A DNA stretch of 49,558 nt from a virus: positions 1 through 49,558 of the IMG/VR virus record IMGVR_UViG_3300023082_000014. One strand, 5' to 3'. The position numbers and the translations under genes were made by a program. Under the pieces are notes generated by a model. It was not told the origin of the DNA. It saw only the letters and a list, made by a program, of their open reading frames with translations, and searched no databases. This document shows positions 23,309 to 45,809 of the stretch, one piece after another. How positions within the stretch are numbered: the first letter of the stretch is position 1; each line of letters starts with the position of its first letter.

Positions 23309-24517
23309 TCATCCAGCCTTCGGACATTCCTGTACCGATTCTGTACCACTCAACGCACCTTCAAGCTTGTCGACTTCGCTCCAGTCGTTCGTGGAGTTGA
23401 TCCACCTGGCGTACGTCGAGAGTAACATTCGCACGCTGTGGCCGAGTTGGTTAGCGATGAACGCTGGGTTCATGCTGGCCATCAGGCACATGGTTGCGTA
23501 GGTGTGGCGGGAATTGTATTGCGGACGTCGACGGATAGCCAATTCATCGACGGCGGCGTCGAAGTGCTTGGCGGTTACGGTGGTGTCTTGGATGAACTCA
23601 TTCCTTCGCGAGGGTGGGAACACATAGGCGGACCTCCTTACTTGCCTGCGCACCTGGGCGGACCTGATACCGGCGATCTGCTTTGCTACCTCCAGCGCGT
23701 TGAGCGCTCTGCTGTTCAGCATCACGTGGCGGTCGTACTTCGTCTTCGTTCGGATTTCGACTTGGCCATCGACAACGATCTTGAAGACATGGGCCGTTCG
23801 TTTCTGCTCGTCGATATCCTCCCAGCGCAGCGCATACATTTCGCCAGGCCTCATTCCGGTAAAAAAACCAAACTCAGCTAGAGCACCATAAATCTTCACC
23901 GACTTCGGCAGCGTGTCGTACATATGCGCGATTATTCTGTTCGCCTCCGCCACAGTGAAAGGGTCGATATCTTTTCTGCCAGGGGCGGGCGTTTCAATCG
24001 ATGACAGCGGGTTTCGGTTTATCAGGCCGTCGAGTACCGCGGTGACGAATATCGGGTTCAGACGCTGAAGGGAGGTTCTTTTGATTGAAGAGCGCTTCCA
24101 CTCGATTTCACCAATAGTCTTTCTCAAGAATGCCGAGGTTAGTTGGTCCATTGGCATCTGACTTAATACAGGCATCCAGTAAAGATTGAGAGAGACGAGA
24201 TAGTTATCCCTCGTCCCCTTAACTATATCCCTGCCGTTCAACCAACTCTGAGCGTATTCCCCGAAAGTTGGCATGGAGGAAGTGGTGGAGTAACTAGAGT
24301 TGGGGAAAAACTCGGCGTACCTGGTGTCATCGAGGACGCCGAGCTTTGCGAGGTTCACTACGTTAGAGCGTAGATCTGCCGCGGCTTTGATACCCTTGGC
24401 CGTCTGGGGAAGGCCGAGGGTCTCACAGCGTCTCTGGCCCTTCCAGGTGAATCTGATGCGGATGGTTTGACCGATGAACTCAACTCCGGCGGGCAATCCC
24501 AAAGGCTTTCGAGCCAT
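23309..24517 (-). CDS. Site-specific tyrosine recombinase (phage integrase)
   Basis: 402 residues. There is an N-terminal arm-binding region (about residues 1-60, 'VEFIGQTIRIRFTWKGQRRCETLGLP', DUF3596-like), a core-binding SAM-like domain (about 83-175) and a catalytic domain. Active-site residues visible are Arg223 (TGMRPGE), Lys258/260 (RTKTK), Arg337 (YNSRHTYAT), His360 (QLGHS) and Tyr369 (STYARW). The HxxR histidine position is Tyr, as in many relatives. It is preceded by and overlaps a putative excisionase gene. It integrates and, with Xis, excises the prophage. Confidence 0.95.
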   Translation of the reverse strand: MARKPLGLPAGVEFIGQTIRIRFTWKGQRRCETLGLPQTAKGIKAAADLRSNVVNLAKLGVLDDTRYAEFFPNSSYSTTSSMPTFGEYAQSWLNGRDIVKGTRDNYLVSLNLYWMPVLSQMPMDQLTSAFLRKTIGEIEWKRSSIKRTSLQRLNPIFVTAVLDGLINRNPLSSIETPAPGRKDIDPFTVAEANRIIAHMYDTLPKSVKIYGALAEFGFFTGMRPGEMYALRWEDIDEQKRTAHVFKIVVDGQVEIRTKTKYDRHVMLNSRALNALEVAKQIAGIRSAQVRRQVRRSAYVFPPSRRNEFIQDTTVTAKHFDAAVDELAIRRRPQYNSRHTYATMCLMASMNPAFIANQLGHSVRMLLSTYARWINSTNDWSEVDKLEGALSGTESVQECPKAG

Positions 24518-29382: not shown

Positions 29383-29717
29383 TGCGCCTCCTTGAGCTTC
29401 GATATTTCCAGCTTGTCGGGGTGGCGGTAGTTCAACAGCCACGAGGGGCACTTAACGAGCTTGCCATCTACGACGATTTGCACACGCGTGCCGATATCGG
29501 GCTGGTTCGGATATGCATCGTCGTACTCGTTCAGCAGCACGGCCATGCGCTCCTGCCAGTCAGGCGGCATCGCCTCCATCAAGACCCGTGGCAATGTCAG
29601 CCAGCTGGCGTAACTCAGGCCAAACCAGCAACTCAGGTCTTTTTGATACTCAAAGTCGGGCATGGATGATTCCTCGCCAGGTGCATCGTTCGGGGTTGGA
29701 GCATGTTGATAACTCAT
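29379..29717 (-). CDS. Hypothetical early protein
   Basis: 112 residues from the ATG overlapping the methyltransferase stop (ATGA). An internal ATG (MPDFEYQ...) is also possible. It contains 'MEAMPPDWQERMAVLLNEYDDAYPNQPDIGTRVQIVVDGKLVKCPSWLLNYRHPD', with a small beta domain at the end. Function unknown; similar proteins sit near DNA methylases in Pseudomonas phages. Confidence 0.75.
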   Translation of the reverse strand: MSYQHAPTPNDAPGEESSMPDFEYQKDLSCWFGLSYASWLTLPRVLMEAMPPDWQERMAVLLNEYDDAYPNQPDIGTRVQIVVDGKLVKCPSWLLNYRHPDKLEISKLKEAQ

Positions 29718-31867
29718 GCCGCTACGGCCTGGCTTTGCGCCGCGCGCCATGGATCGTTGGCCCGAGCCAGCGCGGCCATCGGCGGTGGGCTGACGCTGTT
29801 GCCACACATGTGGACCTGCTCGGTCTTCGTGAACGGCTTGCCGTCGGCGCCGTGCGTGATGATGTAGTCCGTGGGGAAGCCCTGCGCCCGGTACAGCTCA
29901 GCCGGTTGCAGCATCCGCAGCCGGATGTCGACGATCACGTACGGCGTGCCCTTCACCATCACGGTGACCAGGCCGAGGCGATCCTTTGTGGTGATCGTCG
30001 GTGCGGGTTGGTCGCAGCCGCTCATGTTCTCGGTGCCGTAGTAGCTGATCAGGAAAGCAGCTACGCGCAGGGCGCCTTCTTCGTGCTCGGGTGAAAGTTC
30101 GAAGCTGACCAAGGAGCTCTTGCCTCCGCCACCCGCCGTGATGGTCGGCGCTGGCTCATTCAGGTCCTGGCCGACGCTGGCGCCAAACTGGCGTTCCATG
30201 AAAGCGGTGACCAGCCCGTGGTGTGTCCCGCTGGCGCTGACCGTGTGGAGCGGGTCGGCGGAATCACGGGCGTCGCAGTTGCCGCGCAGGTGCAGAAGAT
30301 GCGCCGTGGCGAGCATGTGATGCTGGCCGGTCGTAAGCGTCGGCACCGGCCCCTCGATATCGGACGGGGCGTGTCCGGTTGTGTTGGTGACGAGCGTTGC
30401 CGTCACCAACTGCTGCTGGCTGCCGGTATTCGTCACCGTGGTCATCGGATCTTCGAGGCTTTTCGCGGCGGTGGTGTTGAAGCCGCCGTTCATTTGGGCC
30501 ATGAACGCCGTGGCGATGCCCATGGCGTGCGCGGCGCCGGCCGGGCGCTGGTAGTTACCGCCGCTTGTGATGGTCGGCAGCGGTTCGTCCAGCGGTTTGC
30601 CTTCATCGTCAAACCTGAACTTCACCAGGTGCGCGGCAGCGAGGGCATGTTTCACGCCGCCGGCGACCACCGTCCCAAGCGGCTGATCCACGCCTGGCAC
30701 TCGCGGCTCTTGCCCCGGGCGCTCGCCGTAGCCTGACTGAATCAGTGTCGGACTGATCAGGGTCAGCTCGCCGCGGTTGGCGCACGTCACTGTCGGCAAC
30801 GGCTCAAGTGGATCGTTGATACGGTCGCTGCCCTGGTGTGTGGCTGGCGCAATCACCGGGCTGACCACTGAGAAGGCCCCGCCTCTCGGATAGGAGGTGA
30901 CTGTGCGCAGCGGCTGATTGGCTGACTGCACCGTTTCGCCTGACCGGTTGGCAATCGGCACGATGAATGGTGTCGCGTTGTCGATGACAAATTTCTTCAT
31001 GCCTTTGGCTACGCGCCGCAGCGTGGCAGGAGCCAGGTCCTTCTTGCGGCCAAAAATGCTTTTGCCCAGATCGGAGAAATCGATGCACTCCGCCGCAGTG
31101 CGCCAGGGCTTCTGGCCCTTGGCCGGCTTTTTGGCGTGAGTAGGTTCAGGCCAGACAATCGGCTGCCCATCGCAGCGGGCAAGCATGAACAGCCGTTCGC
31201 GGCTGGTTGGCGCGCCGAAGTCACAGGCCTTAATCACTTTCCATTCGACGACGTAGCCCATGCCTTCGAGCAGGGCGACGAATCGGCGCCACGTGCGCCC
31301 GCGCTGCTTCGGATCTGGAATCAGGAACTGCTGGTCTACCGGCACGACCTCACCAGGTGCGGCGATCGCGCCGCCCAGCTTGATGACGCGCCCGGTAGCT
31401 TTATCTCGCTTCGCGATCAGCCGGCCCCATTGCAGGATCTGCTTCACGTTCTCCAGGCTGATAACTCGGGGCTTCTTCTTGCCGGCCCACTTCAGGCCGA
31501 TCCATGACAGGTTGCGGATCTCGCGCTTGCGCGGTTGCCCGCCGGCGGCCTGGCTGTGGTGGGTGCAGTCCGGCGACATGTGGAACCAGCCCACCGCCTT
31601 GCCGTTACACTCGGTATCCGGATCACCGTCGAACACGTCAGTGGTGAAGTGCTTGGCGCCCGGGTGATTGATGGTGTGCATGCTGATCGCTTTGGCGCTG
31701 TGGTTTTTCGCCACGCTGACCTTGCGACCAAGGCCCATCTCCAGCCCGGTACCGGCGCCGCCACCGCCGCAGAAGAAGTCCACGACGATCTCATCGTCTT
31801 GCGGATCGAAGCCAAGGCCGTACTGAGTTTTGAAATCGAAGGGGTGTTTCTTCTGATGTGCAGACAT
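29714..31867 (-). CDS. DNA (cytosine-5) methyltransferase with about nine internal repeats
   Basis: 717 residues. The N-terminal catalytic half has motif I DFFCGGGGAGTG (30-41), motif IV SPDC with Cys101 (Asp replaces the usual Pro before Cys), motif VI SLENV (137-141) and motif VIII TSRERLF. The end has 'LRMLQPAELYRAQGFP' and the motif X-like 'CGNSVSPP'. Between them (about 300-620) lie about nine degenerate repeats of the form P-x-x-T-(V/I)-(T/S) ... L-V-x-A, each 25-45 residues, in place of a normal target-recognition domain. No restriction partner is seen, so it is likely an anti-restriction enzyme. Confidence 0.93.
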   Translation of the reverse strand: MSAHQKKHPFDFKTQYGLGFDPQDDEIVVDFFCGGGGAGTGLEMGLGRKVSVAKNHSAKAISMHTINHPGAKHFTTDVFDGDPDTECNGKAVGWFHMSPDCTHHSQAAGGQPRKREIRNLSWIGLKWAGKKKPRVISLENVKQILQWGRLIAKRDKATGRVIKLGGAIAAPGEVVPVDQQFLIPDPKQRGRTWRRFVALLEGMGYVVEWKVIKACDFGAPTSRERLFMLARCDGQPIVWPEPTHAKKPAKGQKPWRTAAECIDFSDLGKSIFGRKKDLAPATLRRVAKGMKKFVIDNATPFIVPIANRSGETVQSANQPLRTVTSYPRGGAFSVVSPVIAPATHQGSDRINDPLEPLPTVTCANRGELTLISPTLIQSGYGERPGQEPRVPGVDQPLGTVVAGGVKHALAAAHLVKFRFDDEGKPLDEPLPTITSGGNYQRPAGAAHAMGIATAFMAQMNGGFNTTAAKSLEDPMTTVTNTGSQQQLVTATLVTNTTGHAPSDIEGPVPTLTTGQHHMLATAHLLHLRGNCDARDSADPLHTVSASGTHHGLVTAFMERQFGASVGQDLNEPAPTITAGGGGKSSLVSFELSPEHEEGALRVAAFLISYYGTENMSGCDQPAPTITTKDRLGLVTVMVKGTPYVIVDIRLRMLQPAELYRAQGFPTDYIITHGADGKPFTKTEQVHMCGNSVSPPPMAALARANDPWRAAQSQAVAA

Positions 31868-33039: not shown

Positions 33040-33103
33040 GGTTCGATTCCATGCGAAGTGAAAAATGGCCTACGCTTACCGCTCCACAGGAAGGGATACG
33101 GTC

Positions 33104-33304
33104 ATGAGCGAAGACAGAGAGTTGGCGCTGGAAACGGCACTGATATTTGTAATGGCCGAAATCAGGAAGCGGGGTATTGATCCCGATGAAGTCACAGAGA
33201 TCGTTGCGACGTGCCTGCTTGAATCAGATGTCCGGCCGCATATTGGGTCTCAGGCTGTGATTGCCATCGAGGCCGCGGTTGATGCGCTGCCCGTGACTCA
33301 CTGA
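33104..33304 (+). CDS. Small acidic protein encoded against the leftward operon
   Basis: 66 residues (MSEDRELALETALIFVMAEI...) from the ATG at 33104, with GGAAGGG eight bases upstream; an ATG at 33065 adds 13 residues. It is helical. It fills the gap between two minus-strand genes and ends base-to-base against the clamp-like gene's stop. The intact frame, composition and tight packing suggest it is real, which would make it the only rightward gene in this operon. Confidence 0.55.
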   Translation: MSEDRELALETALIFVMAEIRKRGIDPDEVTEIVATCLLESDVRPHIGSQAVIAIEAAVDALPVTH

Positions 33305-34009
33305 TCAGGCGGCTTCAGATTCGGTTTCTGCTTCGGTCCAGGCCGGCAGAAACCCTTTCATTTCCTCGCCGCGCATCGGCATGAGCACACCGACAAAAAG
33401 CTCGTTCAGGTCAAGGCGATTGAACCGCACGATTACTGAGCCGTTTTCCTCGCCAGTTTCAAGGTGCATCCCGCCGCCTCCGAAACGCTTCTGCCCGGAA
33501 AGCATGACGCCGATCTTGTTGAATACTTCCAGGTATTCACCGTTAAAGCACGGATACGAGCCCTCGAATTTCTGGCGTTTCTTTGGAATCACGCGGCGCC
33601 AATTTGGAAAGATGCCGTCGACAAGTTCGGTTTTCTCAGTCAGGTGCGAAAATTTCCCGAACATTTCTGGCTCCTCCGCGACGTCGGCCAGGCTGGTGAT
33701 GAGCGAAAATTTTTCCGCGATCCAGAGCAGCGCGGGCGGCTCTCCATCCGGTCCTTTGCGGGTTGTGCAGGCAGAAAGCATCCGCTTAGAGACGGTGCCG
33801 ATGAGTACCGACTTGTGTTCAGGATGAATCCAACCGTCAGGGTCGTGCATAGCGCCCATGAAGTGACCGTTTGTGGCGACGATGAGGACGCCGCCGGCGG
33901 CATGGGGCTCAATCTGGACTGCGTTGAGGTAGTAGCGAACATCACCCTTGGCGGCGCACTGGTGGATGGCTGCGAAGTACTTCGGATTGACGCGGGCGAG
34001 GTATTTCAT
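33305..34009 (-). CDS. Sliding-clamp-like protein (DnaN domains II-III only)
   Basis: 234 residues from the ATG at 34009, with GGAG six bases upstream (an ATG at 34021 adds four). Three DnaN hallmarks occur in order: VATNGH (44-49; DnaN ATDGH), DGIFPNWRRVIP (131-142; DnaN EGxFPDYRRVLP) and a C-terminal VLMPMR (208-213; DnaN V/MPMRL), which in DnaN helps form the partner-peptide pocket. The length equals DnaN minus its first domain. It might replace, bind or poison the host clamp; ring formation without domain I would need a different interface. Confidence 0.82.
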   Translation of the reverse strand: MKYLARVNPKYFAAIHQCAAKGDVRYYLNAVQIEPHAAGGVLIVATNGHFMGAMHDPDGWIHPEHKSVLIGTVSKRMLSACTTRKGPDGEPPALLWIAEKFSLITSLADVAEEPEMFGKFSHLTEKTELVDGIFPNWRRVIPKKRQKFEGSYPCFNGEYLEVFNKIGVMLSGQKRFGGGGMHLETGEENGSVIVRFNRLDLNELFVGVLMPMRGEEMKGFLPAWTEAETESEAA

Positions 34010-34091
34010 GGTTTTCTCCATGGCGTGCGCCGTCCTCTGATACGGGACGGTTGCGAATAGTTTGGTGGTGGGCAGTGAGTGGTGACTCGCG

Positions 34092-34553: not shown

Positions 34554-34868
34554 TCAGGTGGCCTGGGTAAATGAGATGTCGTGCTCGCGGGCGGTGAGGG
34601 CGACGGTGCGGGTATCGACGCCGATCTTCATGCCGATCTGGCGAGCGTTAAGTCCCGCTTCGGCCAGTTTACGAATCCGCGGTGCACGCTTGGCTCGCTT
34701 GGCCTTGAGCGTTTCCAGATGATTCGTGGTGCCCAGCAGCGGCGCGTTGGCGCTGACGCCCTGGTCGATGTGCTGAATGCGATGGCCGGTGGCGAGGAAG
34801 TGATCGATCTGCGCGGACAGCTGGGCGATCGCCTGCTTGTGCTGGTCCGGTACGCTCTCGCCAATCAT
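34554..34868 (-). CDS. HTH DNA-binding protein
   Basis: 104 residues. The N-terminal half is helical ('DQHKQAIAQLSAQIDHFLATGHRIQHID'). The C-terminal 'RAPRIRKLAEAGLNARQIGMKIGVDTRTVALTAREHDI' is a clear helix-turn-helix. It could regulate the leftward operon. It overlaps the upstream gene by four bases. Confidence 0.78.
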   Translation of the reverse strand: MIGESVPDQHKQAIAQLSAQIDHFLATGHRIQHIDQGVSANAPLLGTTNHLETLKAKRAKRAPRIRKLAEAGLNARQIGMKIGVDTRTVALTAREHDISFTQAT

Positions 34869-44260: not shown

Positions 44261-44523
44261 GTAATCAATTTCAGCCGGGCGACCTGGCGTTGACAAAGGT
44301 CTTCGATGCCGACATCCCAGCCGGCAGTCAGGTAGAGCTGATCGAGCGCATCGAGAAAGGCGCGTTGGTTCGCGGCAAAGGCTATTTCCGGGCTCCCTCG
44401 CCAGGGTGGTACGTGATTCAGCAGAGCTCGGGCGTAAGCACGGCCTATGCCGATCACGAGCTGATTCCACTCCGGGGCGAGCGCGATCTGGCAGAGCAGA
44501 AGGCCAAGGCGGTATCTGCATGA
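44257..44523 (+). CDS. Hypothetical protein in the recombination block
   Basis: 88 residues from a GTG overlapping the nuclease stop. A small beta-barrel-like pattern ('FQPGDLALTKVFDADIPAGSQVELIERIEKGALVRGKGYFRAPSPGWYVIQ') is followed by a helix. Function unknown. Confidence 0.68.
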   Translation: MSNQFQPGDLALTKVFDADIPAGSQVELIERIEKGALVRGKGYFRAPSPGWYVIQQSSGVSTAYADHELIPLRGERDLAEQKAKAVSA

Positions 44524-45809
44524 CGACGGCCGCCGTGAAGATCACCGACGCCGAAATCAAACGGCAGGCGGTCGGCCCGGTCCGTGACCTTCGGGATTAC
44601 GAGCATCGCGGCCTGTACCTGCGCTTCGCCAAAAACCGCGCCCGGGCTTCGTGGTTCCTGGTGGTGCGTGGCAGGTGGAATCGGATCGGCAGCTACCCGG
44701 ACCTGTCCGTCAAGCAGGTCATCGCGGCGCTGCCTGATATCCGTCTACGCCTGGACGCCGGCGCGAGCACCAACCTTTCGAAGTGGCTGACCGTGGGTGA
44801 GCTGCTGGAGTGGTACGCCGAGCGCATGTCTCGCGATCGCAGCCTCTCCGACAAGCGCAAAGACACAGCCGCCTCCGCAATCAAGTGTCACCTGCTGCCG
44901 CGCCTCGGGTCTGCAGCACTGACCGATATCGACAAGGCCTACCTCGACCGTGAGCTCATGTGGCCGATGCAGGAGACGCTGTCCATCGATTTCGTGCGGC
45001 TCGTCTTCCAACTGCTGGCGCTGGCATTCCGTCAGGCCCACAAGCTGGGTCTGATCGCGAGCAATCCCCTGACCGGCATCAAGTTCAGCGATTTCTCCAA
45101 GGCAAAGGTAACCGTCAAGCCGTCACGGCTGCGAGGCGTGCACATCGAGGAGCTACTCCAGCTGCTGCTGCGCGAGCTATTCCCCATCCCGAATGACGCG
45201 ATCCTGGCTCTGATGATGCTTTGCCATGGCACCCGCATTGGTGAGACCCGCCAGGCCCGCTGGGACCACATAAGCCTCGCCGAACACGTCTGGTTCATCC
45301 CGGCCGCTGACACGAAGACCCGGGTGGAGCATTACCTGCCGCTGACCGAGGCTGTCCGACATCTGCTGATGCTGTATCGCCAGGTGCAGCAGAACCGAGG
45401 CTACACCGGCCCGTTCCTTTTCCCAGGGCGCCGAGGCAAGCCCCTGAGCCAGAGCCAAGCCAGTGCCGTGTTCACGCGGCTGGGGAAGGGCGAATGGACC
45501 AGCCACGACCTCCGCAAGCTGGCCCGCACCGGTTGGGCAGATATCGGCATTGACCACCTGATCGGCGAGCTGCTGATCAACCACGCCATGGGCCACAACG
45601 TGAAGGTGTACATCCAGTCCGACGTGATGGCCCGCAAGCGTGACGCGCTGGAGAACTGGCACCGCCATCTAGACGGCAAGGGGCTGAACGTCATTCTCGG
45701 ATTGACCGGCTTTAGATTTGAGGACTCCGACAAATCGCTACAGGCCCCGCCGCGTATGGCCTGCAACCCTATTCAAGAATCAACCATAGGCGAGGTTTCA
45801 AAAGCATGA
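44520..45809 (+). CDS. Second tyrosine recombinase, in the rightward operon
   Basis: 429 residues. The N-terminal part ('VRDLRDYEHRGLYLRFAKNRARASWFLVVRGRWNRIGSYPDLSVKQV') resembles the arm domain of P4-type integrases. The catalytic domain has Arg239 (CHGTRIGE), Lys266 (ADTKT), His329/Arg332 (SHDLRKLAR), His355 or His359 (NHAMGH) and Tyr364 (VKVYIQ), so it looks active. It is not next to attP and is expressed with replication genes. It may resolve genome multimers, process recombination or be captured from another element. Confidence 0.9.
   Translation: MTTAAVKITDAEIKRQAVGPVRDLRDYEHRGLYLRFAKNRARASWFLVVRGRWNRIGSYPDLSVKQVIAALPDIRLRLDAGASTNLSKWLTVGELLEWYAERMSRDRSLSDKRKDTAASAIKCHLLPRLGSAALTDIDKAYLDRELMWPMQETLSIDFVRLVFQLLALAFRQAHKLGLIASNPLTGIKFSDFSKAKVTVKPSRLRGVHIEELLQLLLRELFPIPNDAILALMMLCHGTRIGETRQARWDHISLAEHVWFIPAADTKTRVEHYLPLTEAVRHLLMLYRQVQQNRGYTGPFLFPGRRGKPLSQSQASAVFTRLGKGEWTSHDLRKLARTGWADIGIDHLIGELLINHAMGHNVKVYIQSDVMARKRDALENWHRHLDGKGLNVILGLTGFRFEDSDKSLQAPPRMACNPIQESTIGEVSKA

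Follow-up and report, generated by a model that had tools for sequence, protein, structure and literature searches.

Why would a temperate phage encode a protein that resembles the bacterial sliding clamp DnaN and lacks the parts from which the clamp ring is built? The question is raised by a gene in the IMG/VR virus record IMGVR_UViG_3300023082_000014, which was analyzed over its full 49,558 bases and is referred to here as the window. The temperate phage has an integrase, a repressor, and an antirepressor, in addition to head genes, tail genes, and replication genes of O-like and P-like type. This single record contains two tyrosine integrases that belong to one PHROG (23309-24517, minus strand; 44406-45809, plus strand). 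The host is probably Pseudomonas, since relatives of the target gene occur in Pseudomonas prophages.

The target gene lies in an open reading frame on the minus strand that extends over 33305-34021 and stops at 33305. An internal ATG at 34009 is preceded by GGAG 6 nt upstream and corresponds in position to the start of several relatives; on these grounds, it is likely to be the true start, yielding a protein of 234 amino acids. An earlier sequence-only reading of the locus had arrived at the same span and length, probably rightly, and gave no strand. Comparison with relatives yields dN/dS values of 0.07-0.16, which indicate purifying selection and rule out a decaying gene.

33305..34009, minus strand: coding sequence of the putative ring-less clamp fragment, based on the reading frame, the GGAG, clamp homology and fold, and dN/dS; the upstream ATG at 34021 would give 238 amino acids

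By sequence similarity and predicted fold, the window protein is genuinely related to the bacterial beta clamp. A phmmer search with the single sequence matches E. coli beta at E=1.7e-5, and a profile of 29 family members does so at E=1.5e-28, placing the relationship far above chance. The three DnaN landmarks on which the relationship had originally been proposed are indeed present and in order (VATNGH at 48-53, FPNWRRVIP at 138-146, LMPMR at 213-217, in the numbering of the 238-residue frame). Structure prediction and fold search, which had been suggested as the check, agree: the AlphaFold2 model (pLDDT 89.5, pTM 0.88) has a clamp fold, and the PDB entries listed as its Foldseek matches are all beta clamps, with E-values down to 1.3e-7. 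The model of a 193-residue relative that is 99% identical to Bcep781 gp15 (pLDDT 85.3) matches the same beta-clamp structures at 2e-10. Pfam gives a weak match for the window protein alone (PF02767, E=0.06) and PF02767 matches for 23 of the 29 family members. The protein is nevertheless not a DnaN in the curated sense, which entails three domains, about 366 amino acids, and a score above the TIGR00663 cut-off of 137.65 bits; it scores 23.1.

Existing annotation points in another direction. The best PHROG match of the window protein (PHROG 3007, E=9e-31) is labelled as a RusA-like Holliday junction resolvase, as are several GenBank and RefSeq phage records to which the label has spread (e.g. 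NC_004333.2 gp15, NC_048067.1 gp25). However, every one of 200 Pseudomonas genomes has a match to the PHROG 3007 profile, among the matches listed mostly in a 368-residue frame, which is the length of DnaN, and these matches coincide with the place of the host DnaN where the two can be compared. In addition, no Pfam RusA match is found in the 29 family members and the fold is that of a clamp. The resolvase explanation is therefore rejected, with practically no chance of being right; the label of PHROG 3007 is wrong and the family is clamp-derived. PHROG 12598, which is also labelled RusA-like, weakly matches the window protein.

What distinguishes the protein from DnaN is its architecture. Alignment and modelling indicate that it consists of DnaN domain II and the second half of domain III, i.e. 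1.5 domains:

33581..34009, minus strand: equivalent of DnaN domain II, comprising two beta-alpha-beta-beta-beta units (alignment and family profile; PF02767 in the family)
33368..33580, minus strand: second half of DnaN domain III, comprising one beta-alpha-beta-beta-beta unit (alignment, AlphaFold2 secondary structure, and PF02768)

Each chain thus has three half-domain units, not the four of two complete domains. The sequence-only reading had described the protein as domains II-III, differing from DnaN in length by domain I alone; this was mistaken, given that about 60-80 residues of domain III are gone as well. The missing part is the first beta-alpha-beta-beta-beta unit (E. coli residues 253-310), and its loss is family-wide. 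With the family grouped into 53 clusters by a 70% identity threshold, 8% of E. coli positions are occupied in domain I, 88% in domain II, 13% in the first half of domain III, and 92% in its second half. All clusters lack domain I and a full domain III except L090 (326 amino acids), the sole one with a full domain III, which adjoins full-length clamps in the phylogenetic tree. Profile alignment alone would leave room for the C-terminal unit to be the first half instead; the FN..Y and MPMR signatures, however, favor the second half. So does an independent check, in which the C-terminal unit of the relative in Salmonella phage W5_chr3 was matched by PF02768 positions 64-119. The possibility of a split clamp, for which another gene of the phage would supply domain I or III, was likewise rejected: PF00712 and PF02768 have no match over the cut-off in the mini-clamp phages searched, and the sole weak PF00712 match falls, by its coordinates, within the mini-clamp itself.

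These losses bear directly on whether the protein can form a ring. In DnaN, the dimer contact is made by I78/F106 of domain I with I272/L273 in the first half of domain III (PMC11139829). Both regions are deleted here, and with them both sides of the head-to-tail contact, in support of the earlier view that the protein cannot close a beta ring. The same absence argues against a role as a subunit of the host beta clamp, whether by insertion or by pairing. That explanation had been proposed on first reading, and lysogenic hosts carrying the prophage do have their own full DnaN; with neither contact surface available, however, we regard it as very improbable. A trimer of two-domain chains resembling PCNA, also proposed at that time, is rejected because each chain has 1.5 domains rather than two.

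The retained parts are those that make up the clamp-binding-motif (CBM) pocket, the whole of which is predicted to be carried by domain II and the second half of domain III. The following elements contribute to the pocket or adjoin it (E. coli numbering for residues):

33923..33943, minus strand: DVRYYLN, loop with pocket residues R152 (kept in 98% of 50 clusters) and L155 (100%)
33857..33880, minus strand: VATNGHFM, with pocket residues T172, G174, and H175 kept, and with R to F at 176 and L to M at 177 (pocket comparison)
33584..33610, minus strand: FPNWRRVIP, with pocket residues P242, R246, and V247 (pocket comparison)
33530..33547, minus strand: FNGEYL, with N320 and Y323 of pocket subsite II (pocket comparison)
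33371..33385, minus strand: LMPMR, last pocket strand, with M362, P363, M364, and R365 (pocket comparison)
33308..33367, minus strand: C-terminal tail past the pocket strand, with the motif LPAW (tail comparison)

Conservation is concentrated in this pocket. With pocket residues taken from the literature (PMC11139829) and 36 bacterial DnaN proteins as reference, identity to the DnaN consensus among 50 mini-clamp clusters is 79% at pocket positions compared to 31% at other DnaN-conserved positions (p=3e-7). As the relatives had been found partly with peptide seeds, the test was repeated on subsets. The bias holds within domain II alone (p=8e-5), within the second half of domain III alone (p=1e-4; the seeds of two large scans avoided the MPMR strand), and in ten GenBank relatives found by tblastn rather than seed patterns (p=5e-7). 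The window protein itself has the same residue as E. coli at 15 of 18 pocket positions. As a caveat, the pocket positions overlap short motifs that may also stabilize the fold. The pocket rim is less constant: positions 176 and 177 vary within the family, only 38% of clusters retain R176, and WP_001553032.1, the homologue from an E. coli prophage, has H175 replaced by F and N320 by Q. About half of the mini-clamp clusters have a P-x-[WF]-type tail motif soon after the MPMR strand, which is found in none of the DnaN proteins; such a tail could fold back onto the pocket.

The residues facing DNA have followed a different course. K198, which touches DNA in the E. coli clamp (PMC5042465), is retained in 10% of clusters, and K235, invariant in DnaN, in 2%. 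The loss of the DNA-contacting lysine weighs against two explanations that would keep the protein on DNA. One is a new kind of ring, in which the half of domain III that has no mate within its own chain pairs with its counterpart in a second chain. Four chains of three half-domains would provide twelve, the same arithmetic as in beta (2 x 6) and PCNA (3 x 4), and the lone beta-alpha-beta-beta-beta unit may leave a face wanting a partner. Pairing of identical halves, however, would probably invert alternate chains and split the pockets between two faces of the ring, and none of the genes of the window phage was noted as a clamp loader. Such a ring is highly unlikely.

The other is the chief rival to the reading that we favor, namely a ring-less accessory factor whose pocket holds a polymerase, nuclease, or recombination protein of host or phage and brings it to phage DNA. 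The model for this is herpesvirus UL42, a monomeric clamp that holds its polymerase, comprises two full PCNA-type domains, and likewise has a clamp fold without a ring. In overall charge, the mini-clamps appear to differ from UL42, which has a strongly basic DNA-binding face (PMC9690074): the window protein, with a net charge of about -3.5 and a pI of 6.3, is slightly acidic, and the mini-clamp family is near neutral (median pI 6.9).

Some gene neighborhoods speak for an accessory role. In Acinetobacter phage 4316 and its relatives, the gene directly follows an A-family DNA polymerase, and in phage KL1 the same place beside the polymerase is held by a full-length DnaN (PMC3483164). In other phages, the gene is beside RdgC/SSB, and RdgC/SSB/RecT-type genes are near it in several; these placements fit an accessory role in DNA metabolism and count against a decoy. 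On the other hand, an A-family polymerase match was found in only five of 17 records carrying the gene, with the window among the 12 lacking one, and B-family and Pol III alpha polymerases were found in none of the 17. Searches of the window for A-, B-, and C-family DNA polymerases likewise gave no match. No CBM was found in the five polymerases adjacent to the gene, and among the phage's own proteins CBM-like motifs number 4, close to the 2.7 expected by chance, which together point to ligands of the host. On balance, an accessory factor is possible but rather unlikely.

Elsewhere, the gene has other surroundings. It is found in the early accessory region of the window, between repressor and integrase, and has the same placement in a prophage of E. 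coli and in one carried by a Salmonella plasmid. In Bcep781 and Salmonella phage W5_chr3, it stands alone on the opposite strand among head genes. As these neighborhoods differ among phages, the mini-clamp gene is not tied to one replication module. The two methylases that the sequence-only reading had noted beside the window gene were confirmed. Membership in an early operon, which that reading also described, is suggested by the location between repressor and integrase; the promoter-like site at 37929-37901 matches at 11 of 12 positions, but is of a type no more frequent in the window than in shuffled sequence.

Several other genes of the window are of interest in their own right. A 79-residue open reading frame on the plus strand (33065-33304) converges with the clamp gene so that their stops abut, and relatives with 42-48% identity adjoin the clamp gene in the same orientation at two other loci (L002, L003). 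A small early protein encoded near the clamp gene (34554-34868, minus strand) matches PF20661, the SutA RNA-polymerase-binding domain, at E=5e-8 and has a possible HTH, making it a candidate modulator of host RNA polymerase. A C5 cytosine methylase of 717 amino acids (29714-31867, minus strand) has a long middle region with repeated protein units resembling '(D/E)xPLxTVT/TIT...GxHxLVTA', possibly a multi-unit target-recognition region; no long tandem repeat was detected in its gene at the DNA level.

The family extends well beyond the window. More than 100 relatives were identified in phages and prophages of Pseudomonas, Burkholderia, Acinetobacter, Caulobacter, Salmonella, and E. coli, including 24 GenBank phages and 96 IMG/VR loci from three scans with some overlap. 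Others are present in Pseudomonas prophages and in plasmid records, with one plasmid copy within a prophage-type region. A homologue annotated as 'hypothetical protein' occurs in 59 of 5,426 complete E. coli genomes. In a Pseudomonas paralactis prophage (L004 2743-3368; L117 6001-6626), the mini-clamp is apparently frameshifted, with the frame closing after 98 amino acids. In the tree, the mini-clamps form one side of a branch with 100/91 support that is present in all 200 bootstrap trees sampled. This rules out repeated recent truncation of host DnaN and, as far as the phylogeny reaches, defines the mini-clamps as one old lineage separate from DnaN.

In our best reading, the protein offers host CBMs a clamp pocket without a ring, acting either as a decoy or as a selective sequestering factor, and we give this reading an even chance of being correct. 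A decoy was among the initial proposals, and it survives as the best reading because the pocket is the part that is selectively conserved. The protein would be a soluble monomer, or would at least form no ring encircling DNA. Its pocket would take up CBMs from a single host clamp partner or a small number of them and withhold these proteins from the host clamp, with clamp-loader delta, RecB, MutL/MutS, Hda, and translesion polymerases as candidate clients. Produced early in infection or lysogeny, the protein would amount to a dominant-negative clamp of natural origin. This fits with published precedents. Cloning of a monomeric beta variant whose cleft is functional proved impossible, and the authors of that work interpreted this as a dominant-negative effect (PMC3022782); delta has an affinity for monomeric beta about 50 times that for the dimer (PMC11139829); and RecB uses a CBM (PMC13254535). 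A more specific version, to which we assign slightly less than an even chance, is that an old and widespread phage lineage reduced the clamp to its pocket, yielding a soluble effector to which selected clients, such as clamp-loader delta or RecB, are diverted. In this version, the protein would mimic the pocket instead of inhibiting the clamp.

The main difficulty for a decoy is that the window phage, given its O-like and P-like initiation genes, presumably relies on host Pol III and the host clamp, so a non-selective decoy would harm it. The altered rim residues at 176 and 177 could narrow the choice of clients such that host Pol III is spared. Judging by the residues involved, loss of R176 may also reduce CBM affinity.

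Comparison with known systems helps to define what is new. The mini-clamp shares domain II, the second half of domain III, and the CBM pocket with bacterial DnaN (E. coli, P. aeruginosa; fold E-values of 1e-7 to 1e-10), and lacks domain I, the first half of domain III, the dimer contact, and the DNA-contacting K198. Full-length phage clamps (Microcystis phage Mae-JY04, Paracoccus phage Psul1, Burkholderia phage KL1 gp28) are likewise phage relatives of DnaN, but have three domains and 376-386 amino acids and fall on the DnaN side of the tree, in which KL1 is not included. The monomeric E. coli beta I272A-L273A similarly combines an intact pocket with the absence of a stable ring and is apparently dominant-negative (PMC3022782), but is a laboratory point mutant that retains all three domains. 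Gp168 of phage Twort resembles the mini-clamp as a phage protein acting on the clamp system, as shown for Gp168 and proposed here; it occupies the DNA channel of the clamp (PMC11139829), whereas the mini-clamp would instead mimic the clamp pocket.

The existence of short phage genes named for DNA polymerase III beta is already known. Sequence search places Bcep781 gp15 ('DNA Pol III b subunit fragment') and a protein of Pseudomonas phage USP_25 in the same family as the window protein, and fold match adds AH2 gp20 (209 amino acids), to which a clamp-family name, DNA polymerase III beta subunit, has been given (PMC3483164). The records of these three proteins provide a name only. The literature searched contained no study of the short clamp family, nor any description of its 1.5-domain architecture, its pocket-specific selection, or its single origin.

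In addition to correcting a widespread misannotation as RusA-like resolvases, the analysis concerns a site of general importance. The clamp pocket serves as a hub that gives bacterial polymerases, mismatch repair, RIDA, and RecBCD access to DNA, and is an antibiotic target. As about 1% of complete E. coli genomes carry a homologue, the proposal is directly testable in E. coli. If it is true, phages attack the clamp hub from the client side, and the mini-clamps would provide a ready inhibitor or probe of clamp-client interactions.
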